Shown: piece by piece, positions 1,059 to 45,016 of the stretch
Layout: every line of letters starts with the position of its first letter
Numbering within the stretch: the first letter of the stretch is position 1
IMG/VR virus record: IMGVR_UViG_3300047557_002845
Coordinates: 1 to 59,611 of that record
Reading direction: 5' to 3' (one strand)
DNA length: 59,611 bases
Origin: a virus
The notes under the pieces: model-generated
The model's input: only the letters and a program-made list of their open reading frames with translations
The model's database searches: none
Told to the model about the DNA's origin: nothing
Translations under genes and position numbers: made by a program

Positions 1059-4000
1059 TTAAACAATGTCAGCATAGTCAGCGGACATAAAGTAATTAAT
1101 ATCAGAGAGAAAAACCTGTCTATCAACAAAGGATAAATAAGCAAGAGGGTCAGAGGAGAGATGAAGATTATTTGTATCATCCTCTGACACTTTTAAAGAA
1201 ATAGAAGGGATAGGAGAGTCAGGGTTAGGGGTAAGGACGGCTACAGCAGTGGTAGGGCGGCTAGAATAAGGATTAGATTGAGGATGCTGAGGGTGTTTAG
1301 GAGATTGACCGCCTTGAGCAGAGGATAACATAACACGAGCGTTTATTTTAGAGATTTTACGTTTAGAAGATTGAAGGTAGGATATACCTAAGTCTAGTTC
1401 CCTGTTAATTGCTTCAAGTTCAGAAAAAGAAAGACCAGAGTTAGCTGAGATAATATCCTGTTGTTGTTGGGGGGAAAGAGAGTAAGGAGAAGAAGGTTTA
1501 GGAGAAAAAACAGCGCGCGGCTGTATATTAGCAGTGTCCTTAGGTGTTTTTGCTTGAGTATTAGTAGAGTTCTTAGGTGTTTTTGCTTGTGTATTAGTAT
1601 TTGGTGTTTTAGACCTAAGCTGTTCTGCTTGACGAATTCTGTATCTGTCCATTAAGAACCTAATGAAATTATTTTTCCTACCTTCAGGAGTTCCATGCCC
1701 CCCATAATTTCTAGTAATAGTAATACTAGTATATTCTCTGGATAGTTTATCAAGAACAGCCTCTGAGAAGTTTCCATCAATTACATCCTGTAGTATACCC
1801 CGCTTTTCAAGAGAGTAAATAAACATTAAATCTTGGACACCTGGAGAAAAAGAGTTTATAGGTATGCGGCGGTCTACACCTTCAAACATTTTAGCTAAGT
1901 CTGGGGCATTATGGTTCATACTTGCTACTCTTGCATAAACAAAATCTAAAGCTTGATATCTACCCGATGCCGTAGACAGGTGGTCCGCTCTACGTCGTAA
2001 AGGAGTATGCCCAGCTGGAGCTACAAAAGGGTGTTGTATATTATTAAGTTTAGATAGTTCAATGTTAGAGCCCCCAATAATATATCCATATCCAAAATTT
2101 ACAGAGTTATTCCTAAAATCGGTCCCCTCCGCGCGCGCTACAGCATCTGCAAGGGCAAGTATAGCCGGATTAGTTCTAAGATTGTCGTAATACAGCTTAC
2201 CTTTAGGTGTAAGCCTATTATATAGTTCTGGTGTTAAAAGGTTACGTCCTTGAGTAACAGTTGAAGTAGATTGGTTTTGAGGTTGTGCAGAAGGTGGTGG
2301 AATTAGAGCGGGGGGTAAGTTATTACCCCAATTTCCAGTTTTTAAAGCCTTAAAATAGCGGTCATAAGTTTCTGGTAAAAGAGTTAAGTCAGTATGAGTG
2401 TTATCCCCATCTGGATATTGTGTACCTATTATCTGCCCAAAGAAAACCTTTTGCCCTGTACGTACTGTAGCTCGTATATGTATCGCCCTACCTAGAAATT
2501 TTGTCATCTCCCGATCTTTATATATACTCACATAAGAGTTTTTACCCGCACTGACTACTTTTGCATAACCAGTAGCAAAGCTAGGCAATTCAACACCTAT
2601 CATACGGCCGCCCTTACGAAGAGTAATATCTAGCTTTACAAATTCGCGTGTAGTACCGTCTGGTCCTATATGTTCTTGTACTTCATGAGGTACTTTTTCA
2701 CCTCGGCTGTTTACATAAAAAAGAGATTGACTGCGCTTTCTTCTAAATACAGCATGGTGGGGATAAGCTTCTGCAAAAGAGCTTATGTTGTATTGCTGAT
2801 CCTTATTACCTCCGGACGGATCCTTATGTCCATAATTAGAAAAAGAGATACTACCCGGATAGAATTGGGGGTCTAAACCTTGATTATCGTAGATATCTGA
2901 ACTAGAAGCGGAATTAGAGGCGTAGGAGCTAGCGATAGCGTTTTGAATAGCATAAGATCTAAGTCTGGAAATGCGTCGTTGTTGGCTATAGCGATTAGTG
3001 CCAGCATGGAAGTTAATTAGAAAACCACTACCGGCGCCTACAGCAGTGCTACCACCAACAATACCTAACATAACAGGGACAGTAGCAGGAAGAGCAGTAC
3101 CGCCGGACAAAGCACTAGCGGCGCCTAGTCCAAGAAGAGCTAAAACACTAGCGGCGGCCCCTATAGCGCCACCTGCCATTGCGCCCTCACCGGCTTCTTT
3201 GGATAAATTAGCAAGGGCTCGGGGGGTAGCGTTGTACATACCATGTTTAAGCATTTCACTTTCTAGGTAATCTCCTACTAAAGCTTTTACAGGTCCACTA
3301 AAATAAGAAGTTAATGAAGATACAGCTATACCTAGAAAAAAGTTAGCTGGGTAGAATATAGAGTCTATACCTCTAGCCATAATATCTACTAAAGTAGACC
3401 CCATTCTTCTAGAAGCTGATTTGATATCATAATAATAAGAATCATTGTGTGGGTCTAATAAACCCAAACGGCGATAAGTTGAAACAAGAGGGTTATCATT
3501 TTTTAAGGAGACTTCTCTATTAAGAGTAAGAACAGAAGAGATAGTTTGAAGAGTGTTATGAACAAAGAAAAGATAGCCTACAGAGTCTAAAGACCGTTGC
3601 ACATACTTATTTTGCAAAAGCGGAGCTAAAAGAGAAGTAACAGCTAACATGCCGCCACCTATTTGAAGGGTTGTTCTAAGAGCTTGAGAGTTTTGGTCTT
3701 TGTCGTTTATAAGAAGGGTACTAAGAGCAAAAATACTTAGCCCAGTTAATACACCACCTTTTTGAATACTAATATTAGAGTTAGGAGTAGGAGGAGCTTT
3801 AGGGACGGAAGGAGTAGGTCTATAGAATCGTCTAAATAAGTTATGAGAGCGAGAGCGAAGAACACCAAAAGGTTTGGGTCTATAAGTTGGAGAAGGACGA
3901 GGTGCAGTGTAAGAAACAGAAAGACGAGGACTTGGTTTAAAGATAGAAGAGACTTTATTAGAGGCAGCACGGATTGAGCTAAAAGAAGATTTAGATAGGT

Positions 4001-7000
4001 CAGAGAAGAAAGAGTAAGCAGAAGAAGAGACTGAAATAATGCCAGGAGCTATCTTTTGTTTTCCAAAACTTAATAGCGACCTAAATTGTTTATTAAAATA
4101 CTGAAAATCAAAAGGTATTAGCGTTGCGTGTATAGACCTACTATCATCGTAGTTATCTAGCCAAGACAACGTAGGATCTTGTTCAGCACCAAACTCGCCT
4201 GTAAATGTACTACTACTAGGACCGCCGCCGCCGCCGCTAAATTTATTGTATGTATCTTGCCACGTTTTCATAGCGCGCGCGTTGTCTTTAGCTTCTTTAG
4301 ATAAACCTCCAGCATTCTGGTTAGCTTTTGTAACGTAGTCAGAATAAGAATCCTTAAATTCAGTTTCTGAAGTAATCTCGTTATAGAAAGATAGTAAATT
4401 AATATGCTTTGTACTAAAAGCCAATTGGCTTTTAACAGTAGTTTTTTTAAACTCCTTCTTAATTTGGTCTAGTCCCTGATCTTCAAGTAGTGGTAAGATG
4501 TCTTGTTTTAAGTTTGGATTCTTAGCAATTTCGGACTTGAAAAATGTAATGTCTTGCTCTTTAGGAATTGCTCTGTTTAAAATAGCATTTAAGCTAGTCT
4601 TAATTTCTGTGAAGTTTTTGTAGTAATGTATAGGTTTTACTTTTTTTTGGTCCTTACTTATAATCAGATATGATTTCGTGTTTATTGGTTGTATAAATTG
4701 AGCTTTGGCTATTCTTGATAAACTTAAAGGTGCAGCGTTATACTCAAAAGAAGCTAAATTACCCGTACTCTCTGCTAGTAAAAAACTCTCACTTGCAGCT
4801 TGTTTTACTGTAAGAGTACCCGGGTTTAAAAGATTACTATTAGGGACTGAAGAGTACGAAACTAAATCTAAAGATACAGTAGTATTGTAAAAAACAGGTT
4901 GTGGTGCTCTACTAGGGTTCATTTCAAAAGATGGATTTCCGTGTTCTTCCCAATAGTTTACTAAAGCTAATAAAGACTCATTACCACCTTTTGCAGTAAA
5001 TATTCTAGCCCCAGCGCTTGATCTACCCGATTCGTCTTTAAAGGCAGAAGAAACAGATAGAAAAGCTCGTTGTTCTCCATCTATTTCTACAACTGTGCCT
5101 GTAAGTATAGGGCTAACTTTGTCTTCTGATGAAATTCCTAACTGGTTTACCGCGTCGGGTTTAACGGTTAAAATTGACTCATTAAATTTACTACCTTGTC
5201 CTAGTATTTTTGAATGATCTTCCGGTGTTAGAGTTGACTTTTCAAATTCCCCTGTAAAACCCGCAGATACAAACTCTGTTTCTTTACCTCCTACAAACCC
5301 TTTACCCGGGACAAGCTTTATTCCAGTACTAAACTCATCGATACGAAGGTTATCTATGTTAATAGAAGCGCCGGGCTGCAGTTTGCTAGCACTTTGTATG
5401 GTTTTTACTTCTTGTGGAGGTGGTTCCGGTATAAGTGTTTTACTGGTTGTAGCTGGCGCCCGTTTTGGGGGTGGAGGTGGTTCCGGTATACCTGTTTTAC
5501 TGGCTGTAGCTGGCGCCCCCGATTTTGGGGGGTGTGGTCCCGTGTTAGGTGTGTTAGGTATACTAAAAGGTTTGTAAAAGCTATCTAGATGAAGAGTTTG
5601 ATGTATAAGTAAGCTAAGCTGTTGACCAAACCCTTTTAAAGGAGAAAAAACAGCCCCGGCGGATTTTTTTTCTATATCCAAATTTATATTATTTCTAGAT
5701 AGGTTATGAATCCAATGAACATAACCAAGTTTTAGGTTACTACTATGTTGGAAAGCCTTATTATTAAGTTCTTGTATACCTTTACCTTCTTCTAATACTA
5801 GGATACTACGGGTAGGAGGTTGTGCACTAGAAGGTTGAAGAGGGGAAGAGGGGGTAAAATCAACGGTTTTAAAATCTGGGGATGTGTGAGTAAAAGACCG
5901 CCAGTCTTTTTTAGTATCTACGCCGCTTTCTTTTATAAGAGAATCCATAACGGATTTATCTGTACCTTCAGCGTAAAAGATTTTGGTTACAATTCTGCCA
6001 CTCTTAGTATCTTGATATGAGACAGAAAGCGCGCTGTAATTACCAGTTGTATCTACATACCCCATAGTAACAAATTCATTACCCCCATGAATAACACTAG
6101 GGGTCAGTTTTTCTTTAACTATATCAGATAGCTTGTCATATTGTTTGCCATCCAAACTAGAACTGTATTTAGTAGTTAGTTTATTATAAACTTCATCGGC
6201 AGAATTAACAGTTTGAGACGCAATAGTTGTACCTTTAAGTCTATCTGTTTCTAAATATTTAATCTTTAATTTACTATTAGGAGTAGAGGAAGTAAAAGAC
6301 TCAAGGTCTTCGACCTTGGGGGCAACGCCAACGTCGAACCCAGGGAAAGATCCACCGCCGCTACTAGGGCGACTACTGGCTCTTTTAAAGAAGCTAGCAC
6401 CGCTGCTACTAGAGGCGCTACGGGGGCCGTAGCGGCGGCGGCGGTAGCGTCTACGGGAGCTATCAGCGTCATCACCGGGGACAGGGCCGGAGCCACCGCT
6501 GCTACTAGGGCGACTACTGGCTCTTTTAAAGAAGCTAGCACCGCTGCTACTAGAGGCGCTACGGGGGCCGTAGCGGCGGCGGTGGTAGCGTCTACGGGAG
6601 CTATCAGCGGCGTCACCGGGGCCCGTAGGAGGAGTAGAGCTACCTGGGATATCTCCGTCGTCACCGGGGCCCGTAGGAGGAGTAGAGCTACCTGGGATAT
6701 CTCCGTCGTCACCGGGGACAGGGCCGGGGGTAGAGCCAAGTGTAGAAGAGGCTTTAGCTACAGATTTCCAATTTCTAACTCCCATCCATAAATTAAAAAG
6801 ATTATTAATAACAAATGTAGTTAAAAGAATATTATTAACCGCGTCTTTAGTATAGGAAGAAGGGGATGCAAGATTATTATCGTTAGCATTAGCTTTAGAG
6901 GATGGGAAAATAAACTTAGAGAAGTTATACGCCCAATTATTAGAATATTTATCTTGCATTCCTCTTGATTCGTAGTAAGCTGCGTCGCCGAATTGTTTAC

Positions 7001-10000
7001 CTAAGTGAGAAGCAAAAAGACCAACAATACTTGAAATAATAAATGAAGCAAAAAGAGTTTTATAATTAGAGCCGCCGAACTTAGAGATAGCAGAATAGGA
7101 AGCAGTAAATGCCAAAGAGCTTGCTGCAGCGCCGATAGCGGTAGAGTACTCGGAGCGGTAGTTTACTCTATCTCGTTTATGTTTTTCAAGATTATTAAGA
7201 CGTTCAATATTACCAAAAGTTATTTGAAAGTCAATAAGAGTGAGTAAAGCGGGGTTACCTAAAAAGCGGATAAAGTTACTAAAAAACCCAGCGGCGCGAC
7301 GACCAAAAGTGAGTGCTGGCTTAACAACCTTTTTTAAGGTATCAATAAAAATAGAAGACCTAGAAGTGCTGGTGCTAGAAGGAGCTAAGCTTGGAGAAGA
7401 AGAAGAAGAGAACTTAGAGAAAAGGCCCATCAAACGGGGTAAAGCTAAATTACCTACAGCAGTAATACCTACCCCCACAGCTAAAGAGGTTATAATTTGC
7501 TCATTTTCGCTTGATTGTGGTTTAAATCTGTTTACAGCAAGGCGTGCTACGCCAGTAAATAGGCCTGTGCTAAGAAGAGAAAGACCAATACGTGGATTAT
7601 TTTTAAAAAGTTTAAGAATAGAAGGACTAAAAACAGAAGACGCTAAACCTATACTACCTGAAGCTAATATATTAAACTGTTGGTCCTCTTGCTTAGGATT
7701 AATACTATTAAACCCTTTATAGGCAAAATATCCAACACCCAAGCCAAAAAGGGTTCGGGGTGCTAACCTAAGAATATTAGGGGGCAAAGACTTAAAAGGA
7801 AGAGATTTAAACAGGCGTATACTAAGAGGTACAGCAGAAGCGGCAGTAAGAATACCCCCAGAGATTTGAAGGGTATTTTTTAGAGTTTGAGCGTTTTTAT
7901 CATTTTTATTTTGAGGGGTTGTAAACAAACCAAGAGCTAAAAGAGAAGCACCTAAACCTAAACCGAAAACTTGTGTTATGGGTCTTTTTAAAAAGCTAAA
8001 AGTAGAACCAAAAAAGGAAGAAGAGGATACAGTATTAGGAGTTAAAGCCTTAGAACGAAGATGTTTTTGGAGTCGGTCAGCAATAACAGTAAAAGCGGTG
8101 CTGCCAAGAACACCAATGCCAATTTGGGATAAAGGGTCAGTATTAGGGTTATAAAATTCAATACCACTTATAATGAGAGTTGCTAAAGAGGACCCTTTAA
8201 TAGCCGGTGACAAGTGGTTGTTAAAAAAAGTAGCGCCGCGTTGAGTGTAAAGGTTTTTATAAAGAGAAGCAAAAAAAGAGCCAGCCGGTTCAACGAGATG
8301 TTTGGATATAAAGCTAGAAGCTTTAGAAATAGTTTCGGTAGAGAAGCTAAAGATATTGTTATTAAGAAAAAACCCAGCGCGCGCTGCGTTAAGAAAGGCG
8401 GACTGACCAAAACCTATAAGAGGGTTTTTAGGTTTATTATAAGAGCGGTAAATAGATGCGCCATAAGTGTCAAAGTCTGATTGAGAGGATCGAAGTCCAA
8501 TAGCAATACGAAGGATATTAGAGATAGCTGGGGGGTTAGCAAATTTAGATAAAAGACGAGAGCGCCCACCTCCCCGAGAGGGGGAGAGGTAGGGTTCATC
8601 TACAAATGGATTACCTGTATAAACGGATCCTTGAAGGTAAGGATGAACAAGAGGGTCTATATTAGGTTTGTATGAAGCTGCGCGTTGTACATTTTGTTGA
8701 TAGTTACTAGCAATAGTTTTAAGGTATTCATCGTAAGAGAGGATTTCTTGTCTAGGGCCTGCAAAGGTATAAGAGTTAGGGACTTTACTCATTCTAAAGA
8801 GGTCATACCGTTGAGGTGTTTCTGGCAAAATGAAAGATAAACCCATTTGAACGTTAGGGTTTTCGGATACAAAAGAAGAGGAGTAAATGTTATTAAGAAA
8901 AGAGTCAAACAGAGAGAAGGGAAAGTGAGAAATGGGGCCTAAAAAAGGTATAGTAGGGAGATTATATAAAAGGTTAGCCGTGCCGTAGCGAACAGGGTCA
9001 AATACTGCTTTATCTATAGCAAGCATAGTAGATAAAGCTGATCTAGTAAAGCGTTTATTATTAAAAGTAGAATCCCAAGAAGTAAAGCCCCAAACACCAA
9101 GGCCCATAGCAATCATAAGAGGAAGGGCGCTAACACCAAAGCTGTTAATAGCCAACATAGCCGCAAAAGCGGCGGCTGTAGTTATTAAGCCAGAAGAAGC
9201 AGCGTAAGCACCCTGATATTTTTGAAGACGGTTAGTAGAGGAGATAGCTAAAGTTAAGCCAGAGAGGACTTCATAAGGGCCATGTAAATCTTGGAATTTA
9301 GAAGCTAGACTAAAAGCGCCTTGAGAGGATTGTAAAACAAGGCCAGTAATACCGCGTTGTTGAATAATAGAGTTAAGATTTTTGACAGGAATAGAAGCAG
9401 TTTTATCAGCGCGGGCTACAGTTGAAGACAAGCTACTAGTTTGAGGATTAGGTTTTTGTACAGGAGGTAAATTAGCTTGACTATATATATCCTTTTGTAG
9501 TTGTAATAAGGCAGAACCTAAAGCCTTTTTTATGCGAGGGTCCAAAACCTCATCTAACTGAGTACTATCTATAATAGAGGTTAGTTCAGTCAGAATACTA
9601 TCAACTTTGTTTTCTAATAAATTTCTCATATCATCAGTTATATCTAGTAACTCATAAACTTTTTTTGTCTGAGTAGTAGAGATAGTAACGTCTGTGTCTA
9701 AGAAATCAGTCAGTTTGGTTTTTAACTTATCAGTTAACTGTTTTGCTTTTGTATTAATATCGTCTGTTAGAGTTTGTTTTAAAGCCAAGTCAGAAGTTGT
9801 ATTTAGCTGGTTTTTAAGTCTAGAAACATCACGTATATCTGATTGTATCTCTTTATCAATAAAGTCAATATTGAATAGAGAATTGTGAGCATTTTGTATA
9901 CCTGAAGTAAGATGAGTTTCATTAAGAACATCAGTAATAGAATTGTTTATAACAGTATTATTAAGTTTTAACTTTTGAGATGAACTGTCAAAGGAGAATT

Positions 10001-13000
10001 TTATCTTTGAAACTTGCTCTAAGTTAGTTCTAACAGTGTTAAGTTCATTAGTAGTAGATTTAAGGACATTACCTGTTTGAATAGCATAGAGAGAAGTTAG
10101 AGTTTGAGAGCCGACAGCAATAATACCGCCAAGTGTAAAAGTAGCAAGGGGAATAGATTGAACAGCCAAAGCCAAGCCGCTAGAGATAGAGGAGTTACCA
10201 GATAGAGAACTAGCAACGTCTTTAAAAGTATCAAAAAAGTAACCTAAAAAAGGTATTTGGCTGGTTGTTTCTTTGTATTGTTTCGCAGCAATATCTTCTA
10301 AACCAATAGGGGTTTGTGAGTTAGAAGTAAAGCCTTTAAGAAGTGAAGTGACTCTGCTAATTAAGTTTAAAGAAGAATTAGAGTAGTTAGTACCTACAGT
10401 AGCATACATTTTAGGGAGAGAATCCAGAGGAGTATAGCTAAAAGGTATACGTGTATTAGCCTGGTCAATTCTTCCGGAGGCGTAGAGCTCTTTTAGTAAG
10501 GTATAAGCTAGTTCAATAGGTCTTTGATGTTTAAGATGTTGTAGTTGATATTCGCGTATAGTAATAGCAGTTTGGAAAGCGTGGCTGCTGTTTCTAATTA
10601 ATCCATATTCACTTTGAGAGATATAACGGCTAAGTTTAGCGGGCTCTTTTCTAGGATAAGCAAAAAGACGGTGAAAGAGTTGTGTAGTAGTTTCGTCTTT
10701 AGAGCTAGCTTCTGATAGCATAGCTTTAAGTTGCATAGAGAAATCGGAGCTAGCAAGTTGAGCGGCAAGAGTAACCTTAGAGCCACTGATATCAGCAGAA
10801 GAGCTTTGAGCCTGAGTATAGCCGCGAAGTTTATTTGGTTGAGTTTCACTAATACCAAAAGGACCTGCAAGAGAAAGGAAAGCGTTAGGGTCATCTCTAT
10901 AAAACAGGTTTTGTACACCAAAGATACCTAGAAGAGAGCGGGTAAGGTAATCAGCGTAAGAAGAAAAAGCTTCGCTAGAAGAGGAGGGGTTATAGCGCGC
11001 AGAAGAATAGTTAGATTGTAGAATGCGTTCTGTAGGGCTAAGCTGTTTAATTTGAGAATCAGAAATAATATCAAGGAATCCAAATCTAAAATTTTGTGAG
11101 TTAGTAGAGTTTACCAAAAGACCAACCGCGCCGAGTATAGCACTAATAGAGAAAATACGGCGAGCAGCAATATTAAGGCGTAAATTAGCTGTTCTTATTA
11201 GAGGTAGCTCGTAGTTTTTAAGTAAAGAAGGGTCAAGAGACTTTGTAGCTTGCTCATAGATCTTTTTAATTTCTTTTTGTTTGGTAGATATAAAATCAGT
11301 AGCTGTATCAGAGGGGTTAATATCTTGAGCGCGGCTAAAGACTTTAGCGTGGTGTAAACCAAAACCGTAAATTAATGTTATTGGGGCTACTGCTGTAAAA
11401 AATCTGTGTATCTCGCTAACTACAGGGTTTATAAATTGGGAACCTACGTTAGAAAAAGAACCTTCAGGTGCAGTAATACCGGAAGCATACATATAAGAAA
11501 GGATAAAAGGAGAAAATTTACGTGCTTTAGGGCCAATAGCTTTTATATAAGAGTCGCCTAATAAAGAAGTGCCAGCTTTAAGAAAAGCATTGGGCAGGGC
11601 TACCGTTAAAGATTGGCTATAGCCTACAAGATTACGGATAGTGTCAAAAGAAAAAGCAGTAAGATATCTAAAAGTTCTGTCTGAGGAGCTTATAGATTTA
11701 GGTAGTTTAGAAGCAAGAGTAGAAATATAAGAAGTAGCACCTAAAAAGTTTATAGCAGAACCTAAAGTAGTATCTTTATCAACAGATAAAAATTGTCCAG
11801 GAAAAGACAACAAAGAGAAAAACCCAGCAATTTGCATTTGTTGTTCATACTGCTGTTTAAGTTGGTCAACAGAGGTAGATGAAGGTGAAGCTAAGGATAA
11901 GAGAGACTTTTTATATAGTTCCCGTTTAGCCTCTACAGTATTGCGTAAAGGTCTTACACTAATACTAAAAGGAGCAGTAGGAATAGAGCCTGAACCGAGA
12001 ATAGGAACAAACTGAAAACCCAAGCCATAAGTAAGAGCACTACCTTGTTTATCAAATTTACTAACTAAAGTAGCTTGAAATAACGGTGTTGGGATTTGAC
12101 TAGAGAAGGTATAGATATAAGATGGGCGTTTATCCCTTCCGTAAGTCAGGTTAAGAGCTCCTAAACGCAAGACTTCCCTTGAAGCAATTTCATCAACAGT
12201 AGCTTTATTTGAGGTTTTTTGTGTAGTTAAAGACCTTTTAATAATGCTCATAACTTTTAGGCCTGCTGCCATCTCTTCAGAACTAGGCTTTTGGCCTTCT
12301 CCTCTATCAACGGATTTTATAAAGTTTAGAGTAGCTGCAGTGAGATTAAATACTGTTTGTGTAGCGATAAGTGCTGCGGAGCCTCCTAAAAAAGCGCCCA
12401 TATAGCCGAACTTTAACCTTAGTCTATCTCCTCGGTCGCTAAATAAATATTTAGCTATGTTACTATCAAGATCTGGAGTTGAAGAAGAAGCAGCAGAAGC
12501 AGCGGCACGTAGTTCTTTTTCTGCAGTTCTTAATAGAGAGTCTGTAACACCTAAAGTAGAGAGGTCAACATTTTGGTAACGTGCTTGTAAAGTAGCGTTT
12601 AATCGAGAGACAGCGCTATAAGTAGATTTACGAGAAGGTAAAGCGTAGCCGCCGGTAATAAAACCAGATAGAATGATAGGGTATTTCAAGTAGAAAGGTA
12701 TACCGCCAGTAAACTCTATTTGGCTTACACGGTTTTCGTCCTTAGTGCGGGTGAGGTTAAAATCAGCAAAGATTTGAGATATTAAATCGCCGCTGTTTTG
12801 CATTACATGAGGGTCTAACAACTTATCTAAGATAAGAATAGGACCAGCCGAAAAAAGTACAGAACGTAAAGTCTTATTTAAACCTTTATTGCTATTATCT
12901 TTAATTTTATCTATAGAGTCATTACTATAAAACTTTGTTGTTGTCGAAAACTTCTCATAATCTATAAGGTATTGGTCAACTAAGCTTTGTAATTTTGGGT

Positions 13001-16000
13001 CATCTAGCAAGTCCGCAATATCTGCTCCTAGCTGATTTTTTAGATTATCTGAAAGGTCTTTTAGAGGACTTGATAAAGTTCCCTTACTTAAGTCAGTTAA
13101 ATCTTGTAATAGACCTGGGTCTACATTTCTTAAGAGTTTATCTATTCTCCTAGCGATTTTGACTTCATTTTTAATAAGTTTGTTCTGTAGGGTAAAAGCA
13201 TTATAGCTTTCTGATATAAACTTATCTAATTTAACTTCTTTTACTTGTTGTAGAACTTGATTAGTAAAGGAAGTCAAGCCAGAGAAGCCGGGACCGATTA
13301 GGCTTTTAAGGGATATACTATCTTGAATAATCTGGCCGCTTGGGGTAATATTTTGTTGTTTAAGGGTAGTTACACCCCGAGCTTGTCTATAAGGTTTGTA
13401 GTATAGAAAAGGATTAGCAGGGATAAAACTGGCTAACGTGTCTAGTTGACTGGCTATTTCTTCCAGACGTTTATAACCAAAGTTATGTACATTAAGAATG
13501 TCATTATAGATGTCGTTGCTTTTAAAGATTAAACTGATACCCCCAGATATATTTTGTTTTAATTTACTTAAAGTATTTTCAAACAGGGTTTTGTCAACGT
13601 CTTCGTATACAGCTATATCTCGTATAATAGGTTCAATGATGTTAGTAAAATGGGAGCTATCAATATTTCTTAGAAAGCTAACAGTATTAAAAAGGGCGGG
13701 GCGATTACTCAAGGTATTAAAAGTAATTTGAGTGCTATCCACCCCAAAAGTTGATTTTTTAAAAGTAGCAATGGAGTTTAAATCAGAGGGGTCTAAGGAG
13801 CCGGTAGATATTGCATTTCTTACTAGATTAATATCTTTATCTATAATGTCACTTGATACTTTGAATGTATCAAACTGAGATTTAATTTCAGAGTCTAAAG
13901 AAAGGGGCGTCGAAGCTGCTTCATTAATAATATAGTTATAGTACTCATCTAGGACTTTACCTAATTGTGCAGGATTAGGAGAGGTTTTTAAGGCCTGAGT
14001 TACATCATTTATTACATTCAAGCGACTTATAGTAGTATCATCAAAGTATACTTTTTGTATAAACTTAGGAGTTTTTTGAAAGTCAAGTTGAGATATATAA
14101 TCAGTACCTATATCTTCAAATTTAGCGCGGGCAATAGCGATACTATGAGTTATCCCAAAGTAAAAAGCAAGGGAATAAGCAGTGCTAGACATAGCAGAGC
14201 TAAAAGTATATAAAGTACTTTCAAAGAAACCGCGCCTGTCATCTTTACGATAAGCAGCTTTATGAAAGTCTTTCATATTACCATAAACTAGACCAGCTCT
14301 TAGGTCTTTGTAATACATGTTAGTATAATGACCAGTTAGAGTATCTAAGAATCGGCCTACGCCTTTGCTAATAGTAGAGAATAAACCATCATTAGGTTTA
14401 TAGAGGTTAGGAAATCCAGCATTAATATAAGCACCAAGACCAATAGAAAAAGGGTGTTGTAAAGCAAAATCAGCATAGAAAGCTGAGAATTTTTCCAATG
14501 AAGATTGTTTATCCAACCCGTACCTTAGATGTTGGTAGATATCAGGCGTATTATTAAGGTTAAACCCATGACGAGAGTAGTACTCAGTAGGAATAGAAGT
14601 AGGAAGAAAGACAGCGCTGGAGTTAAGCTTATTATTTAATACGCCACCAATAGACAACATATCTGGCATAAGAAACTGAACTAAATCATTCTTTGTCGAT
14701 ATTCTTGTTTGAGCTTCTTTTATATCCCCCTCTGGATACATAGCTTTGTATAAGCGAAGCGCTGAGTAATCTTTATTTAATGCGGCTTGGTTAATTAAAG
14801 TTTCTAGTTTAGTTTTATTTAGGGTGATTGCCTTGTCGTCCTTTATATCCTGTTTTATAGCATCTATAACGGGTATACCAATACCTGAAGATCTAAACTG
14901 TAAACTAACTTCAGCAACATGTCGTGATGAGTTTTTACTGAAGTTATGACTACCAAGGTGAAGAGTATCTTTAGAAGCAATAACTTTAGCGTGGGGAAAA
15001 GCCTTAGAATTTTCTGGAACTATTAGTACATCAACACCACCTTCTAGTAAAATTCTAGCAAAGTTAGAGCTTTGTTGTTGGCCATCTACACCGAGGGGGT
15101 TTTTAATAAAAATAGAGACTTTTTTACCCTGTTTTTGAGCTGTAACAAAAGCGTTAGCTATGTCTGAGTCCGTTGCATAGGGCATAACCCCGTATATTTC
15201 GCCTTTAGATTCCTGTATCAAGTTAATAATTTCTTGTGTAGAATTACTGCCCATACCTCCAATACTTACTTTCTTAGAAGTAAGTTTTTCCTGTAAAGGT
15301 AAAAAGGTATCAGAAGGTTGTGCGGTAGCTAAAAAAGTAGCTACCTCTCTAAGGTCTTTTGCGATTTGGGGGTCATTACCGGAGATAGCATAGTTAATTT
15401 GTTTATGTCGTTTATCGGCCGGGGTATTATAGACTTCAACTAAAGTATTAAGATTACCTGTGGACACAAAATAACGGTCTGAGCGACCTTCTTCTTCTAC
15501 AAAGAATTTAGAGTGAACAATATAATTACTAACCTGATTTTGGTTAGAAGAGTTCTTACTATATTCTACAGCATAAGGTATAGTTTTATTAGTAACATCA
15601 ACACCACCTAAAAGAAAAGTTCTAGAGAACATAGCAACTGCGTGATGAAACCAATTGCCTCTTGAAGGTTGTGGAGTATCAGAATCCGTGCCAACAGTTA
15701 AACCATAAGCTTTTAAAGCTGAATTAGGTATAAAGCGCATACGAGCTGTATTTAGCTCAGAAAGATGTGTAGAGTCTATAGTAGTAGGAGAAAACACATA
15801 GCCAAGACTACCAACAAAGAGAGAGACTAAAGCCTTTCTACCAAAACTACCTGGTTTAAAAGAACCTGACTTAGGGGTAGTAGAGAAAAGGTTTATAGAA
15901 TTAGAAACAACAGGTTCTGCTAAGTATCCTAATAAACCATATTGCAAAGAATTAACAAATCGAGCGGTGTTGACGCTTTCTGTACTTTGTTTCTGCTCTT

Positions 16001-16574
16001 CAGAGGTTTTATATATAGGGTTACCGGTAAGTTTTTCAGATGCATAGTTTATTATTTCTCCTACGCCGGAATTAAAAGCACCTATAATTTTAAGACTCAG
16101 AATAGAGTTTAGTGCTATAGATGAACTTTCTACCATACTCTCGGTTAAAGAGACATTACCGGGTCCCATAGAAACAACAATTCCATCGTCTTTAGCTTTT
16201 TCAGAAAAGACTTTAAGAAACTGTGGGTTTGAGGATAGTTCGTAAAAAGCACCTTTTAAACTATTAGGTTTAGACTCTTCTAAAAATCCCATTAAGCCTT
16301 TACCTATGTCCCGTGAATTATAAAATGTATGTTTTTTATCTAAGAGAGTGCCGAAAGGTTTAGGTGTAGTATTAGTAGAAGTAGAAGCTAAAGAGGTATT
16401 TGAAGCTAGTAATATAGAGGAATTATTAAAAAGAGAAAGTTGAGGGTTATTAGAGGTAAAAGAGGAGAAAGAACTTAAAGAAGAAGGATTACTAATAGAA
16501 GGGTAAAGTGTTTGAGCTGTATCAGCTAAACTAAATGAAGACCTTCTATTCTGTTCTAAAGACTCTAACTCCAT
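1059..16574 (-). CDS. Giant virion/tail protein: PLD-type domain, M23-like and GH104-like murein hydrolase domains (candidate tape measure)
   Basis: Single frame of 5171 codons, last gene of the minus-strand block. A phospholipase-D-type domain spans about residues 320-600: first lobe with H354-S-K356 followed by a STGNLN segment, second lobe with H528-A-K530 followed by GSHNFS. The middle is long, Ser/Ala-rich and punctuated by hydrophobic Gly-rich segments, as in tape-measure proteins. Residues about 3270-3415 hold a duplicated Pro- and Arg-rich linker. Residues about 4640-4735 look like a LytM/M23 fold with altered metal ligands. Residues about 4790-4960 match the lambda R/GH104 muramidase pattern, with catalytic-type E4816 in AEGT and a downstream SGRYQ. 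Domain order suggests a tail or ejected protein that opens peptidoglycan. Tape measure is an inference: none is found between tube and hub. The start follows no clear Shine-Dalgarno. Confidence 0.8.
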   Translation of the reverse strand: MELESLEQNRRSSFSLADTAQTLYPSISNPSSLSSFSSFTSNNPQLSLFNNSSILLASNTSLASTSTNTTPKPFGTLLDKKHTFYNSRDIGKGLMGFLEESKPNSLKGAFYELSSNPQFLKVFSEKAKDDGIVVSMGPGNVSLTESMVESSSIALNSILSLKIIGAFNSGVGEIINYASEKLTGNPIYKTSEEQKQSTESVNTARFVNSLQYGLLGYLAEPVVSNSINLFSTTPKSGSFKPGSFGRKALVSLFVGSLGYVFSPTTIDSTHLSELNTARMRFIPNSALKAYGLTVGTDSDTPQPSRGNWFHHAVAMFSRTFLLGGVDVTNKTIPYAVEYSKNSSNQNQVSNYIVHSKFFVEEEGRSDRYFVSTGNLNTLVEVYNTPADKRHKQINYAISGNDPQIAKDLREVATFLATAQPSDTFLPLQEKLTSKKVSIGGMGSNSTQEIINLIQESKGEIYGVMPYATDSDIANAFVTAQKQGKKVSIFIKNPLGVDGQQQSSNFARILLEGGVDVLIVPENSKAFPHAKVIASKDTLHLGSHNFSKNSSRHVAEVSLQFRSSGIGIPVIDAIKQDIKDDKAITLNKTKLETLINQAALNKDYSALRLYKAMYPEGDIKEAQTRISTKNDLVQFLMPDMLSIGGVLNNKLNSSAVFLPTSIPTEYYSRHGFNLNNTPDIYQHLRYGLDKQSSLEKFSAFYADFALQHPFSIGLGAYINAGFPNLYKPNDGLFSTISKGVGRFLDTLTGHYTNMYYKDLRAGLVYGNMKDFHKAAYRKDDRRGFFESTLYTFSSAMSSTAYSLAFYFGITHSIAIARAKFEDIGTDYISQLDFQKTPKFIQKVYFDDTTISRLNVINDVTQALKTSPNPAQLGKVLDEYYNYIINEAASTPLSLDSEIKSQFDTFKVSSDIIDKDINLVRNAISTGSLDPSDLNSIATFKKSTFGVDSTQITFNTLSNRPALFNTVSFLRNIDSSHFTNIIEPIIRDIAVYEDVDKTLFENTLSKLKQNISGGISLIFKSNDIYNDILNVHNFGYKRLEEIASQLDTLASFIPANPFLYYKPYRQARGVTTLKQQNITPSGQIIQDSISLKSLIGPGFSGLTSFTNQVLQQVKEVKLDKFISESYNAFTLQNKLIKNEVKIARRIDKLLRNVDPGLLQDLTDLSKGTLSSPLKDLSDNLKNQLGADIADLLDDPKLQSLVDQYLIDYEKFSTTTKFYSNDSIDKIKDNSNKGLNKTLRSVLFSAGPILILDKLLDPHVMQNSGDLISQIFADFNLTRTKDENRVSQIEFTGGIPFYLKYPIILSGFITGGYALPSRKSTYSAVSRLNATLQARYQNVDLSTLGVTDSLLRTAEKELRAAASAASSSTPDLDSNIAKYLFSDRGDRLRLKFGYMGAFLGGSAALIATQTVFNLTAATLNFIKSVDRGEGQKPSSEEMAAGLKVMSIIKRSLTTQKTSNKATVDEIASREVLRLGALNLTYGRDKRPSYIYTFSSQIPTPLFQATLVSKFDKQGSALTYGLGFQFVPILGSGSIPTAPFSISVRPLRNTVEAKRELYKKSLLSLASPSSTSVDQLKQQYEQQMQIAGFFSLLSFPGQFLSVDKDTTLGSAINFLGATSYISTLASKLPKSISSSDRTFRYLTAFSFDTIRNLVGYSQSLTVALPNAFLKAGTSLLGDSYIKAIGPKARKFSPFILSYMYASGITAPEGSFSNVGSQFINPVVSEIHRFFTAVAPITLIYGFGLHHAKVFSRAQDINPSDTATDFISTKQKEIKKIYEQATKSLDPSLLKNYELPLIRTANLRLNIAARRIFSISAILGAVGLLVNSTNSQNFRFGFLDIISDSQIKQLSPTERILQSNYSSARYNPSSSSEAFSSYADYLTRSLLGIFGVQNLFYRDDPNAFLSLAGPFGISETQPNKLRGYTQAQSSSADISGSKVTLAAQLASSDFSMQLKAMLSEASSKDETTTQLFHRLFAYPRKEPAKLSRYISQSEYGLIRNSSHAFQTAITIREYQLQHLKHQRPIELAYTLLKELYASGRIDQANTRIPFSYTPLDSLPKMYATVGTNYSNSSLNLISRVTSLLKGFTSNSQTPIGLEDIAAKQYKETTSQIPFLGYFFDTFKDVASSLSGNSSISSGLALAVQSIPLATFTLGGIIAVGSQTLTSLYAIQTGNVLKSTTNELNTVRTNLEQVSKIKFSFDSSSQKLKLNNTVINNSITDVLNETHLTSGIQNAHNSLFNIDFIDKEIQSDIRDVSRLKNQLNTTSDLALKQTLTDDINTKAKQLTDKLKTKLTDFLDTDVTISTTQTKKVYELLDITDDMRNLLENKVDSILTELTSIIDSTQLDEVLDPRIKKALGSALLQLQKDIYSQANLPPVQKPNPQTSSLSSTVARADKTASIPVKNLNSIIQQRGITGLVLQSSQGAFSLASKFQDLHGPYEVLSGLTLAISSTNRLQKYQGAYAASSGLITTAAAFAAMLAINSFGVSALPLMIAMGLGVWGFTSWDSTFNNKRFTRSALSTMLAIDKAVFDPVRYGTANLLYNLPTIPFLGPISHFPFSLFDSFLNNIYSSSFVSENPNVQMGLSFILPETPQRYDLFRMSKVPNSYTFAGPRQEILSYDEYLKTIASNYQQNVQRAASYKPNIDPLVHPYLQGSVYTGNPFVDEPYLSPSRGGGRSRLLSKFANPPAISNILRIAIGLRSSQSDFDTYGASIYRSYNKPKNPLIGFGQSAFLNAARAGFFLNNNIFSFSTETISKASSFISKHLVEPAGSFFASLYKNLYTQRGATFFNNHLSPAIKGSSLATLIISGIEFYNPNTDPLSQIGIGVLGSTAFTVIADRLQKHLRSKALTPNTVSSSSFFGSTFSFLKRPITQVFGLGLGASLLALGLFTTPQNKNDKNAQTLKNTLQISGGILTAASAVPLSIRLFKSLPFKSLPPNILRLAPRTLFGLGVGYFAYKGFNSINPKQEDQQFNILASGSIGLASSVFSPSILKLFKNNPRIGLSLLSTGLFTGVARLAVNRFKPQSSENEQIITSLAVGVGITAVGNLALPRLMGLFSKFSSSSSPSLAPSSTSTSRSSIFIDTLKKVVKPALTFGRRAAGFFSNFIRFLGNPALLTLIDFQITFGNIERLNNLEKHKRDRVNYRSEYSTAIGAAASSLAFTASYSAISKFGGSNYKTLFASFIISSIVGLFASHLGKQFGDAAYYESRGMQDKYSNNWAYNFSKFIFPSSKANANDNNLASPSSYTKDAVNNILLTTFVINNLFNLWMGVRNWKSVAKASSTLGSTPGPVPGDDGDIPGSSTPPTGPGDDGDIPGSSTPPTGPGDAADSSRRRYHRRRYGPRSASSSSGASFFKRASSRPSSSGGSGPVPGDDADSSRRRYRRRRYGPRSASSSSGASFFKRASSRPSSGGGSFPGFDVGVAPKVEDLESFTSSTPNSKLKIKYLETDRLKGTTIASQTVNSADEVYNKLTTKYSSSLDGKQYDKLSDIVKEKLTPSVIHGGNEFVTMGYVDTTGNYSALSVSYQDTKSGRIVTKIFYAEGTDKSVMDSLIKESGVDTKKDWRSFTHTSPDFKTVDFTPSSPLQPSSAQPPTRSILVLEEGKGIQELNNKAFQHSSNLKLGYVHWIHNLSRNNINLDIEKKSAGAVFSPLKGFGQQLSLLIHQTLHLDSFYKPFSIPNTPNTGPHPPKSGAPATASKTGIPEPPPPPKRAPATTSKTLIPEPPPQEVKTIQSASKLQPGASINIDNLRIDEFSTGIKLVPGKGFVGGKETEFVSAGFTGEFEKSTLTPEDHSKILGQGSKFNESILTVKPDAVNQLGISSEDKVSPILTGTVVEIDGEQRAFLSVSSAFKDESGRSSAGARIFTAKGGNESLLALVNYWEEHGNPSFEMNPSRAPQPVFYNTTVSLDLVSYSSVPNSNLLNPGTLTVKQAASESFLLAESTGNLASFEYNAAPLSLSRIAKAQFIQPINTKSYLIISKDQKKVKPIHYYKNFTEIKTSLNAILNRAIPKEQDITFFKSEIAKNPNLKQDILPLLEDQGLDQIKKEFKKTTVKSQLAFSTKHINLLSFYNEITSETEFKDSYSDYVTKANQNAGGLSKEAKDNARAMKTWQDTYNKFSGGGGGPSSSTFTGEFGAEQDPTLSWLDNYDDSRSIHATLIPFDFQYFNKQFRSLLSFGKQKIAPGIISVSSSAYSFFSDLSKSSFSSIRAASNKVSSIFKPSPRLSVSYTAPRPSPTYRPKPFGVLRSRSHNLFRRFYRPTPSVPKAPPTPNSNISIQKGGVLTGLSIFALSTLLINDKDQNSQALRTTLQIGGGMLAVTSLLAPLLQNKYVQRSLDSVGYLFFVHNTLQTISSVLTLNREVSLKNDNPLVSTYRRLGLLDPHNDSYYYDIKSASRRMGSTLVDIMARGIDSIFYPANFFLGIAVSSLTSYFSGPVKALVGDYLESEMLKHGMYNATPRALANLSKEAGEGAMAGGAIGAAASVLALLGLGAASALSGGTALPATVPVMLGIVGGSTAVGAGSGFLINFHAGTNRYSQQRRISRLRSYAIQNAIASSYASNSASSSDIYDNQGLDPQFYPGSISFSNYGHKDPSGGNKDQQYNISSFAEAYPHHAVFRRKRSQSLFYVNSRGEKVPHEVQEHIGPDGTTREFVKLDITLRKGGRMIGVELPSFATGYAKVVSAGKNSYVSIYKDREMTKFLGRAIHIRATVRTGQKVFFGQIIGTQYPDGDNTHTDLTLLPETYDRYFKALKTGNWGNNLPPALIPPPSAQPQNQSTSTVTQGRNLLTPELYNRLTPKGKLYYDNLRTNPAILALADAVARAEGTDFRNNSVNFGYGYIIGGSNIELSKLNNIQHPFVAPAGHTPLRRRADHLSTASGRYQALDFVYARVASMNHNAPDLAKMFEGVDRRIPINSFSPGVQDLMFIYSLEKRGILQDVIDGNFSEAVLDKLSREYTSITITRNYGGHGTPEGRKNNFIRFLMDRYRIRQAEQLRSKTPNTNTQAKTPKNSTNTQAKTPKDTANIQPRAVFSPKPSSPYSLSPQQQQDIISANSGLSFSELEAINRELDLGISYLQSSKRKISKINARVMLSSAQGGQSPKHPQHPQSNPYSSRPTTAVAVLTPNPDSPIPSISLKVSEDDTNNLHLSSDPLAYLSFVDRQVFLSDINYFMSADYADIV
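5415..5530 (-). repeat. 57-bp tandem repeat coding a Pro-rich linker
   Basis: Two in-frame copies, shifted by 57 bases (19 residues), encode APAT-SKT-IPEPPP-type linker sequence between globular parts of the giant minus-strand protein. Confidence 0.8.
6361..6715 (-). repeat. GC-rich coding duplications (141-bp and 48-bp units) encoding Arg- and Pro-rich linkers
   Basis: The stretch from 6361 recurs from 6502 (141 bases, 47 codons), and a 48-base unit at 6611 recurs at 6659. The longer unit encodes Ser- and Arg-rich sequence with SSRRRYHRRRYGPRS in one copy and SSRRRYRRRRYGPRS in the other. The shorter unit encodes GDDGDIPGSSTPPTGP. The region is much more GC-rich than the rest of the gene and differs in base composition from its neighbours. 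All units keep the reading frame. Confidence 0.9.
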
Positions 16575-16630: not shown

Positions 16631-17197
16631 TTAATTATTTGGTAGTGTATTTATGTTATATTCAACCAACTGGTCGACAGTTAGAGCTGGTTGAAATGTG
16701 ATATTGATGATAGTATTAAGAAGGTTGTCAGAGAAGACATTAAGCATATTATTCTCATAAGAGAAAGAGGAAGAGGAGTTAACTGAGAGAACGTCCCAGA
16801 AAGTGAGGGGAAGGGAGTAGGGGTTAGTATTAAGCAAGAAAGAATAGGAAGAGATAAGAGGGCGGCTACGAACAATCCAAACTTGTTTATCAAGTGGTTT
16901 AGAGACATCTTCTTTATAGTAAGAGACATGGTAGCGCCCAATAGGAAGGTAAATATCAGAGGGGACAAGTTCTAGTTTAAGAATACCGTTTGAAGGGAAT
17001 TGAATGCGAAAAGGTTGAGGGAGGTAGTGTTGAATAGAAGGGCGAGAAGAACGAGGTGGTTGGATATAAAGAGAATACTTAGTAAAGTCAATAGTCGGGG
17101 TTACCTCGTTAAGTTTATAAGCAGAGACTAGTTCTAAAGCAATAGGGCTATAAGTTAAAGGTAGGACAGGATTATAAAAAAGATTAGTATTAGACAT
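16631..17197 (-). CDS. Hypothetical protein, 188 aa
   Basis: I do not recognise this protein. It has a beta-rich composition with many Ser, Pro, Tyr and Asn, no obvious signal peptide and no membrane segment. It lies between the terminator at 17330 and the giant gene, 56 bases upstream of the latter. It is therefore probably transcribed with the giant gene from a promoter within 17198-17329. The structural context suggests a virion or assembly protein, but nothing in the sequence proves it. Confidence 0.6.
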   Translation of the reverse strand: MSNTNLFYNPVLPLTYSPIALELVSAYKLNEVTPTIDFTKYSLYIQPPRSSRPSIQHYLPQPFRIQFPSNGILKLELVPSDIYLPIGRYHVSYYKEDVSKPLDKQVWIVRSRPLISSYSFLLNTNPYSLPLTFWDVLSVNSSSSFSYENNMLNVFSDNLLNTIINITFQPALTVDQLVEYNINTLPNN

Positions 17198-17383: not shown

Positions 17384-18247
17384 CTACTCTGGCTTTTTAG
17401 TACTTTCTAATTGTTTTAGAATATTAGCTTGGAGTATAGCATCTAAATCTTCTATCTCTATTGCTGTAGAGGAATCTCCTAGTATATCGTCCCAGTTACT
17501 TATATTTCCTTCCTCATCTACAAGTGCTGTAGTTAGCTTAGTTTTGTAATTATTGTCTAAGTAAACGTTATATACTTTAAACTTAGTGTTATAGTAGGAG
17601 CCTTCTGCTATCCTTCGTTGAAATCTTCTAAGAAAGTTAATGCTGTTAGTTTCCACTAAAAACTGTAAGTTTTTAGTTTTATAGTAATCTATTAATATAT
17701 CAGCTAGAGCTACTTGTAATTGAGGGTCTAAGCCAGCATCAGGGTTATCAAGAGCCAAAGTAGTATCGTTACTAACAAATTCTAATAAGATTAGTAATTG
17801 TAGAATGGAGTTAACAGAAGTACCAAGTTTATTAACCTCAACTTTAAAGCCATCAAACGTTTTAGCAATAATCTTATACTTATTAGGTTTAGTAGTAGAT
17901 TGTTTTAACGATATAGATTGAACAAGATTAAGATCAGAGAGAGTTTTAGAGAGAGTAGCTTCAAAGTTAGGGACACTTTTTTTAAGAGCTATAAAGAAAG
18001 GATAGATATACTGACCATTAATGCCGGCTAAGAAAGTGATAGGGTCTTTAAGGTAGTAATAGTTAGGAATAATAGCGCGGCGGGAGTTAAGATAAAGAAC
18101 ATGTTCTGCGTTACGTTTATAATAAATATGTCTAAGGATAGATGATTTACCTGTGTTGTTATGCCCCATAAAAAGGGTAATAGGGGAGAGAGAGAAATGT
18201 AGGCTATGGCAGGAGTTAAACCTATCAATCTGGTGTTTTGTTAACAT
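17384..18247 (-). CDS. AAA-type (OLD/AAA_21-like) ATPase with degenerate active-site motifs
   Basis: 287 residues. An ABC/SMC-type P-loop, GHNNTGKSS, is at about residues 28-36. The segment LALDNPDAGLDP at about 164-175 occupies the place of the usual LLDEPEAGLHP Walker B/D-loop, and FLVETNS near 197 that of the usual T-H-S switch. The catalytic Glu is thus Asn and the switch His is Asn, so hydrolysis may be weak or regulated. In the family such proteins are small stand-alone ATPases, sometimes paired with nucleases. No nuclease domain is visible here. The gene follows the terminase by 113 bases and ends at a strong hairpin. A role in packaging, anti-defence or host takeover cannot be chosen from sequence alone. 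Confidence 0.7.
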   Translation of the reverse strand: MLTKHQIDRFNSCHSLHFSLSPITLFMGHNNTGKSSILRHIYYKRNAEHVLYLNSRRAIIPNYYYLKDPITFLAGINGQYIYPFFIALKKSVPNFEATLSKTLSDLNLVQSISLKQSTTKPNKYKIIAKTFDGFKVEVNKLGTSVNSILQLLILLEFVSNDTTLALDNPDAGLDPQLQVALADILIDYYKTKNLQFLVETNSINFLRRFQRRIAEGSYYNTKFKVYNVYLDNNYKTKLTTALVDEEGNISNWDDILGDSSTAIEIEDLDAILQANILKQLESTKKPE

Positions 18248-33003: not shown

Positions 33004-33675
33004 TTAGCTAAAAAGGTAGGTATCGCCGCCTACTGTAATTTGGCTAGGTGCCCCAGATAAAGCTCCCCTTCCGTTACCTGTACTAGACTGCAACCGGTTA
33101 CTACTAGTTTGCAATAGGTTGCCGTCGGGTGTAAACTTAATGGTTTCGCACATGCCTTCAAATCTAGTAGCTACTACTGAACGTCCTGCCATAGCTCCTA
33201 AAGTAACAGAATCAATTTTTGCAAAAATAAGTTGGTATTTACCTCTAGCTGATCTTTTTCTGTTACCGGTACCAAAAAGACTGTTAGTATTGGTCGACAC
33301 GGTAGGAAAGTTGACACCTTTTTCGTGTAGTTCAGGAGCATTAATTTCAACAGTAATAACAAATCTAGGAGTAGGGTCAGCTTTAAACTCAGCTCCTACC
33401 TCATCTAGACCAAATACATCCTTTAAGATAGCTATATCTAATAATCCGCGTTCAAGGACCCAACCATACTGAAACTCCCCGTCTAAAAGGCGAGGGGTTT
33501 TACGACCAAAGGGCATATAAGCTTCTGTAGCGTTACGCATAGTTTGTTGGAAAGAGGTAAATCCTCCAATTAAAACTGGGATACCGCTTGCTTGGTCATT
33601 CATGTAAACATTTAAATGAAAACCCTGTATAGGATCAAGAGTAGCGTTATTAGTTATAATTCTTGTGTTTGTCAT
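33004..33675 (-). CDS. Tail tube protein
   Basis: 223 residues, within the size range of contractile-tail tube proteins. It follows the sheath gene by 39 bases, the invariable order in myoviruses. The segment GEFQYGWVLERGLLDI followed by LKDVFGLDEVG fits the tube strand-helix-strand core that resembles T4 gp19 and Mu gpM. A possible Shine-Dalgarno GGAGG lies about 13 bases before the start on the minus strand. It would polymerise into the inner tube of the tail. Confidence 0.75.
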   Translation of the reverse strand: MTNTRIITNNATLDPIQGFHLNVYMNDQASGIPVLIGGFTSFQQTMRNATEAYMPFGRKTPRLLDGEFQYGWVLERGLLDIAILKDVFGLDEVGAEFKADPTPRFVITVEINAPELHEKGVNFPTVSTNTNSLFGTGNRKRSARGKYQLIFAKIDSVTLGAMAGRSVVATRFEGMCETIKFTPDGNLLQTSSNRLQSSTGNGRGALSGAPSQITVGGDTYLFS

Positions 33676-44219: not shown

Positions 44220-45014
44220 CTAAATAACAGCCCCTTCAAAAGAACCATACTTTTCTTTATAGAGCTGTAAATACTTCTTCTTAATATAAGCTTGTTTGTA
44301 TACCTCAGGTTCAATAACAGGGACATTAGTAGTTGCGGCTAGGAATAGCTCTTGGTCTTTATAGTGGTTAGATATTAGTTGTAAAGGGGTGTCAGTTGAA
44401 GGTATAGAGGTTGTATGCTGGGGAGAATCTAAAGAGGGTATAGAGTCGTCTAGAGGGGTTATAGAGTCTTCTTGAGGTGTTGTAGAGTCTTGAGTAAATG
44501 TAGCCGCGCGGGGCTGCTGTTCACTTAATACTTCTAAGCCTATCTCTTCTTTATACTCTTCCTCTTCTCTCTCCTCTGTTTCTTCTACATTATCCTCTTT
44601 ACTTATTAAACTTCTGGGGTCTTTATGTTCATCACAATAATATACAGGTACTATACAACAATCCCACTTAACACAGCGCGCGCTATTTAATACGGGGTCG
44701 TATACAGAAAAGGCGCAGTTAGCGCAGCATTGCGCTAGTCTATAATTAGGTATACCACAGTTTTCTAGCATACCTAAATCCCCTGCAGGCATAGAATATA
44801 CATAATCAGATAACTTTATTAAGTCTTTAGTACCTAAAGTTTTACTTTCTATAGGACTTTCTACGGGACTTTCTGCGGGACTTTCTACCACTTTTTGTAC
44901 ATCTTTTCTAAGGAGTGCTTCTGATTGAGCTACAATAGGCTCCACATCTATTTTAGCTACTTCTTGTAAGTCTGTACCGTTCATTAGCATTGATATTAAT
45001 TGGTTGTCATTCAT
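44220..45014 (-). CDS. Cys-rich protein of unknown function, 264 aa
   Basis: Not recognised. A compact Cys cluster, LENCG then CCANCAFS, CVKWDCC and YYCDEH, at about residues 80-130 suggests a zinc-binding fold. Before it is a Pro/Glu/Ser repeat (VESPAESPVESPIES), and after it a low-complexity acidic stretch and Thr/Ser-rich tail. It sits between portal and protease genes in position but starts 2 bases from the start of a plus-strand gene. Adaptor or DNA-binding are possible, and neither is proven. Confidence 0.6.
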   Translation of the reverse strand: MNDNQLISMLMNGTDLQEVAKIDVEPIVAQSEALLRKDVQKVVESPAESPVESPIESKTLGTKDLIKLSDYVYSMPAGDLGMLENCGIPNYRLAQCCANCAFSVYDPVLNSARCVKWDCCIVPVYYCDEHKDPRSLISKEDNVEETEEREEEEYKEEIGLEVLSEQQPRAATFTQDSTTPQEDSITPLDDSIPSLDSPQHTTSIPSTDTPLQLISNHYKDQELFLAATTNVPVIEPEVYKQAYIKKKYLQLYKEKYGSFEGAVI

Positions 45015-45016
45015 AT

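Follow-up and report, generated by a model that had tools for sequence, protein, structure and literature searches.

The window analysed here, a linear virus record of 59,611 bases, carries a gene whose predicted product, P0001, joins several enzyme-like domains in one chain of 5171 residues, and the question that it raises is what such a protein does in a phage. The first-pass annotation left three options open, namely that P0001 is the tape measure of the tail, that the tape measure lies outside the window, or that P0001 is an ejected internal protein. The tape measure is now the best supported of the three, favoured but unproven, and on balance P0001 is probably a tape-measure-type protein that is ejected into the host.

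Both Microcystis phage Ma-LMM01 and Microcoleus phage My-WqHQDG have homologues, at about 20-39% identity, of the window's terminase, capsid, protease, portal, tube, sheath, hub-like protein and baseplate wedge. Judged by these identities, the window virus is a distant relative of Ma-LMM01, a phage of bloom cyanobacteria, and with a terminase at ~34% and a capsid at ~30% identity it belongs to the same broader lineage, outside the genus Fukuivirus (the Ma-LMM01 group). In both named relatives a giant gene homologous to that of P0001 occupies the same place after the terminase (Ma-LMM01 gp120, 2898 aa; My-WqHQDG WOL31340, 4151 aa). A second giant, P0002, lies at the other end of the virion block in divergent orientation, with gp080 (3562 aa) as its Ma-LMM01 counterpart. 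Public annotation and PHROGs attribute no function to either giant, gp120 being listed as 'hypothetical' (phrog_29513). The other genes referred to below are as follows, G001 being a record of the same species as the window.

33715 to 37293, minus strand: tail sheath, 1192 aa (phrog_30392, E=2.3e-32); divergent allele relative to G001
33004 to 33675, minus strand: tail tube, homologue of Ma-LMM01 gp092, adjoining the sheath; divergent allele relative to G001
30986 to 32920, minus strand: hub-like protein directly after the tube, homologue of Ma-LMM01 gp093, named 'hub' by position
16631 to 17197, minus strand: small conserved gene, 188 aa, directly upstream of P0001, present in 10 genomes
48456 to 59609, plus strand: second giant P0002, >3718 aa, running off the window; RNA-polymerase-like signature and N-terminal PLD-like motifs

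The 188-aa product, for which Pfam gives no match, is a possible partner of P0001. An AAA_15/AAA_21 ATPase is encoded at 17384-18247 on the minus strand and adjoins the terminase. The protease and the portal (43204-44190 and 45644-47068, minus strand) are Mu-like (PF10123 and PF06074), in a phage group that the literature calls T4-like. Within the virion block, a 212-aa reading frame at 44990-45628 lies on the opposite (plus) strand; it is conserved in nine genomes and has no Pfam match.

P0001 is encoded in a single frame that opens with ATG and is laid out as follows.

1059 to 16574, minus strand: giant protein P0001, 5171 aa, putative tape-measure-type ejected protein, with homologues in 11 other records
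9501 to 16500, minus strand: divergent allele tract, aa ~1-2380, with 66-80% DNA identity to G001 where alignable
14775 to 15617, minus strand: PLD-like domain, aa ~320-600 (PLDc_2), with HKD motifs at 15453-15515 and 14943-14993
8457 to 14699, minus strand: conserved core, aa 626-2706
9087 to 9224, minus strand: Gly/Ala-rich uncharged segment, aa 2451-2496 (composition scan)
~6900 to 8300, minus strand: second divergent piece, aa ~2780-3270 (DNA comparison with G001)
6321 to 6740, minus strand: repetitive Pro/Ser/Arg linker, aa ~3279-3418, with 48- and 141-bp tandem repeats (translation)
3015 to 3194, minus strand: Gly/Ala-rich uncharged hairpin-like segment, aa 4461-4520 (composition scan)
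2325 to 2792, minus strand: degenerate LytM/M23-like domain, aa 4595-4750 (homology to the M23 region of relative L098 and to the 8kea hub)
1605 to 2207, minus strand: GH104-like (lambda-lysozyme-type) domain, aa ~4790-4990 (phrog_90; 3d3d and 1am7)

The frame is not a chance ORF, since an intact orthologue of 5810 aa exists in assembly L003, the diverged parts have a dN/dS of ~0.2-0.5, as under purifying selection, and homologues occur in 11 other records; the single 5171-residue protein first annotated at 1059-16574 therefore stands. Directly past its stop codon, positions 1-968 hold an array of ~99-bp tandem repeats, which is also the contig end. The hydrophobic, Gly/Ala-rich segments ascribed to the chain hold only in places. 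Two hydrophobic Gly/Ala clusters (2451-2496 and 4461-4520; 0.08 expected in shuffled sequences) and nine charge-free runs of 17 or more residues (0.9 expected) exceed chance, but the chain as a whole is not Gly/Ala-rich (13.7%), and the eight TM-like segments given by a plain hydropathy count lie inside the shuffled range (mean 4.7, maximum 10).

Near the start of P0001, where a PLD domain of nucleic acid- or lipid-cleaving type had been proposed, both hallmarks of the superfamily are present. The Pfam profile PLDc_2 matches residues 449-563 (43.7 bits against a cut-off of 27; E=3.1e-11), and the two HKD motifs are found at residues 354 and 528, where the acidic position is either displaced or replaced by another residue. 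The closest NCBIfam models are NucT (7e-4) and DrmC (2e-3), both far below cut-off. Because a staphylococcal nuclease (SNase) occupies the same slot in relatives, the domain is probably a nuclease rather than a phospholipase; the weak similarity to NucT also counts toward this, and the SNase replacement disfavours the lipid-cleaving half of the proposal.

The GH104-like domain near the other end was confirmed by its similarity to the endolysin family phrog_90 (E=1e-11), by weak phmmer matches to the lambda-type lysozymes 3d3d and 1am7 (E~0.01) and by the motifs RAEGTDF at residue 4814 (the AEGT motif) and TASGRYQ at 4868. Pfam has no match to the region. Profile similarity and a catalytic Glu motif, the marks of a GH104 lytic transglycosylase, are both present, and the family name rests on the lambda-type similarity. 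For the LytM-like domain only the homology survived. Residues 4645-4747 align with L098 (E=1.8e-8), in which the corresponding region matches M23 with an E of 1.6e-5, a score that falls short of the curated cut-off, and the region also matches the C-terminus of the solved phage 'hub' 8kea (whole-sequence E=8.8e-5). Pfam M23 itself has no match in P0001 at E<=1 and the zinc ligands, read by eye, are incomplete (HxH reads HTD), so that both the profile and the complete ligand set of a LytM or M23 peptidase are missing. By its residues the domain is a degenerate homologue only, and it may be inactive, since part of the zinc-ligand set is lacking.

A terminase-profile scan yielded 35 loci, and scans with the core added two further large contigs. 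The giant is placed after the terminase in related phages and ranges from 2898 to 5810 aa (homologues of 5810, 5263, 4459, 4390, 4239, 4148, 4073 and 2961 aa, plus truncated ones). The part common to the family corresponds to P0001 residues ~626-2706 (~2,080 residues), with 23-34% identity to the more distant contigs. Immediately ahead of it lies PLDc_2 in the window, L099, G007, G008, G011 and the Microcoleus phage, a staphylococcal nuclease (PF00565, E 2e-14 to 2e-17) in L098, G002 and G010, and no domain match in G006 and G009. The C-termini carry M23 in L099 and G008, an M23-like region with Beta-lactamase2 in L098, a deacetylase in G006, and in G002 a GH104-like domain together with polysaccharide deacetylase, amidase_2, phage lysozyme and Endonuclease_NS. 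The simplest reading of these domain contents would be that the N-terminal slot calls for a nuclease, and the terminal enzymes look like interchangeable cargo mounted on a fixed core.

The named relatives show the same variability. WOL31340 has a PLD domain, as does P0001, and differs in length, whereas in the shorter gp120 the PLD-like motifs are, by eye, degenerate, and the M23 enzyme of Ma-LMM01 is encoded by a separate gene (gp095) instead of forming part of the giant. The 8kea hub likewise has both in one chain, an M23-like segment at the C-terminus and a short match of GH104 type elsewhere, but it has 899 aa, its GH104-like match lies N-terminal of the M23-like segment, and it resembles P0001 in the terminal enzymes only. 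A search of cellular genomes for a P0001-type giant had one match, L167, a fragment of a further allele of the family (80% to L003, 62% to the window) on a contig binned in an Actinomycetales MAG; this placement is likely a binning error.

The place in which a tape measure is usually found, between tail tube and hub, is empty, as the first-pass annotation had pointed out: the tube adjoins the hub-like gene in the window and in 12 related genomes (13/13). P0001 sits ~16 kb from this pair, after the terminase, which counts against its being the tape measure. Gene content nevertheless leaves few candidates. Among the proteins conserved across the 13 genomes, only P0001 and P0002 exceed ~1,250 aa. 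The complete Ma-LMM01 genome has only five proteins >1,000 aa (gp064, gp080, gp098, gp108 and gp120), of which gp064 and gp080 carry RNA-polymerase-like DxDGD signatures, and the other long proteins of the near-complete contig G015 are only fibre-like and RNAP-like. By elimination among long conserved proteins, gp120/P0001 would be the likeliest ruler and P0002 the second. We rejected the 738-aa gene at 28768-30984, which varies in length, is split in G007-G009 and is too short for a 230 nm tail, gp098, which is the positional equivalent of a 601-aa spike-like gene, gp108, which is not conserved in the window lineage, and gp064, which carries the RNAP signature.

The profile search proposed in the first-pass annotation gave no support, as the middle of P0001 matches no tape-measure family in Pfam, PHROGs or NCBIfam; PF10145 was not found in nine related records. 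Charged residues make up 18.6% of P0001 versus 27.5% of the tape region of Thermus phage P23-45, no clear 11-residue hydrophobic period is seen, and hhalign finds no similarity between the P0001 core and that tape region. An AF2 model of residues 626-1800 is mostly helical but too poor to use (pLDDT 48), and a Foldseek viral search with this core model gave no match at E<=0.001.

Comparison of the window with G001 provides evidence of another kind. Most proteins of the two are 97-100% identical; strongly diverged are the tube (71%), the sheath (81%) and P0001 (64% over residues 78-3273), and mildly so the hub (89%) and the genes at 37531 (89.5%) and 44220 (94%). P0001 residues 3418-5171 are 96% identical. 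The DNA divergence falls into two separate tracts, one at ~33.0-38.0 kb and the other in the N-terminal and middle parts of P0001, and the flanks of the divergent P0001 tracts have 97-100% DNA identity. High dS values are found for the tube (1.09), the sheath (1.00) and P0001 (1.01-1.11 for residues 330-2380 and 2780-3270, 1.28 for residues 80-330), and low ones for P0002 (0.03), the baseplate (0.05), the hub (0.09), the 37531 gene (0.15) and the C-terminal part of P0001 (0.02-0.07). The other allele of P0001 has 5810 aa versus 5171, with about 635 more N-terminal residues. An assembly chimera behind the two tracts is unlikely, though possible for the window itself, given that the G001 allele recurs identically in the independent assembly L003, the tracts are in frame and there are several breakpoints.

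In this one pair, in which capsid and portal share none, tube/sheath and P0001 both have alternative alleles, of similar age, and such sharing would fit a P0001 that lies in the tube. Only this pair links P0001 to the tube, because in G002/G003 it is the baseplate (39-57%) that has diverged along with the giant (40%), the tube being at 75%; moreover, P0001 makes up a quarter of the window, and the second tract would land in it by chance about 1 time in 4.

P0002 encodes GDNDGD at residues 3178-3183 (DNDGD at 57990-58004). The motif [LI]GDxDGD is conserved in all its homologues, including gp080, with an upstream R..P.G motif, and the family thus shows the conserved DxDGD of two-barrel RNA polymerases. 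PLDc_2 matches P0002 at E=4.6e-4, below cut-off. A profile search against the PDB gave coiled-coil chance matches only and no RNAP, hhalign aligns just 15 columns around DFDGD with the P23-45 virion RNA polymerase, and the AF2 model of the region is too poor to use (pLDDT 44). P0002 carries, on this evidence, a putative RNA-polymerase-like signature. A 1673-aa protein encoded beside early genes, gp064 of Ma-LMM01 (L165:38812-43833), also found at G010:41819-46660, has RTPMG...EGDADGDQ. This is the second RNAP-like signature in these phages, a group that has been described as having no enzymes for RNA synthesis. A further giant family of 2319-4182 aa, unlike P0002, has RAP...GDxDGD (G007:129720-136679, G009:75453-88001, G015:62070-73826 and G016:124613-136921).

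The tail length can be set against chain length in MaMV-DH01, whose tail is reported as 260 nm (abstract) or 230 nm (text) (PMC9927357) and whose P0001 homologue has 2,899 aa. The 1.5 angstrom per residue assumed in the first-pass annotation would give 435 nm for the whole chain, and the reported tail corresponds to about 0.8-0.9 angstrom per residue, so that the assumption lacks support in its present form. Either the tube is spanned by only part of the homologue chain, or the protein is not a ruler. For 5171 residues the tail would measure about 410-465 nm by naive scaling from MaMV-DH01 and about 780 nm by the 1.5-angstrom rule, a forecast made unsafe by this overshoot.

These data also suit a P0001 that is ejected without measuring length, as capsid-borne or minor tail cargo delivering a nuclease and wall enzymes, with P0002 or a shorter protein as the tape measure. 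T7-type internal proteins deliver enzymes as ejected virion proteins in this manner. The low charge of P0001, its lack of a tape-measure profile, its position after the terminase, the overshoot in MaMV-DH01 and a length that differs so widely in the family, and even between near-identical phages, all agree with such cargo. We nonetheless regard it as rather unlikely, since alternative alleles are shared with tube and sheath and not with capsid or portal in the window/G001 pair, and the conserved proteins offer no good alternative ruler.

It is less probable still that the P0002/gp080 family is a tape measure fused to a virion RNA polymerase and P0001 a companion ejected protein. P23-45 provides the precedent, the charge content of P0002 (25%) is nearer to that of a tape measure and all homologues have the DxDGD signature, but P0002 is 98% identical (dS 0.03) in a phage pair with a tube dS of 1.09, it lies on the opposite strand outside the tail block, and its hhalign similarity to P23-45 gp96 is limited to the DFDGD residues. 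That P0001 is no virion protein at all, acting for example as an intracellular effector or lysis factor, would agree with the 'hypothetical' label in Ma-LMM01 and appears very improbable: throughout the family the gene comes right after the virion/terminase block and is read in its direction, wall enzymes and a PLD or SNase in one chain of >4,000 residues make little sense intracellularly, and Ma-LMM01 has separate endolysins (gp068/gp069).

If P0001 is the tape measure, its chain would fill the tail tube during assembly and be ejected into the host at infection, in an order of action modelled on P23-45 (PMC10770324). The C-terminus, located at the tail tip, would come out first and open the peptidoglycan, the hydrophobic segments would contribute to a channel, and last to leave would be the N-terminal PLD, which would reach the cytoplasm side and, as a nuclease, attack nucleic acid of the host or of an incoming competitor. 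An RNAP-like function would reside on P0002. We tentatively propose, as a whole scheme that is doubtful in its full extent, that phages of the Ma-LMM01 lineage inject two giants, a tape measure with a swappable nuclease (PLD or SNase) and wall enzymes and a separate two-barrel virion RNA polymerase, that tube, sheath and tape are exchanged together as one allelic unit, and that phages differing only there have unlike tail lengths.

Wall enzymes are already known from tape measures and, in one case (P23-45), so is an RNA polymerase; the new points are the nuclease-type swap (PLD/SNase) and the allele linkage to tube and sheath. If true, the tape measure would be a general cargo carrier, with a PLD/SNase switch at its N-terminus and many wall enzymes at its C-terminus, and the two largest unannotated virion-block genes of Ma-LMM01 would gain testable functions. 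Near-identical phages that differ in tube, sheath and giant, the last by about 640 residues, provide a natural experiment on tail length, and the RNAP-like signature bears on the published view of these phages as being without their own RNA synthesis enzymes.

Comparable arrangements exist in other systems. Sle1 belongs to the tape-measure-related effectors of contractile injection systems (CIS) with reconfigurable C-termini (PMC13277306), and shares with the P0001 family a fixed body and an exchangeable functional end; Sle1-type proteins are small bacterial CIS effectors, with homology to P0001 not demonstrated. Tape measures with peptidoglycan hydrolase motifs, such as that of mycobacteriophage TM4 (PMC1796659), resemble the candidate tape measure P0001 in having a wall-cutting domain and, as far as the available part of that source goes, differ from its family, in which the swappable enzymes are of several kinds and a nuclease-type domain is present as well. 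The closest parallel in architecture is gp96 of Thermus phage P23-45, a proven tape measure of 5,002 residues with an N-terminal enzyme (the virion RNA polymerase), membrane segments and a metallopeptidase (PMC10770324). No sequence relation was found between gp96 and P0001; both combine ~5,000 residues, an N-terminal nucleic-acid enzyme, membrane segments and a wall enzyme. The enzyme is an RNA polymerase in gp96 and a PLD/SNase nuclease-type domain in P0001, whose lineage bears the RNAP-like signature on a separate giant, and the tail is long and flexible in P23-45 and contractile in the window lineage.
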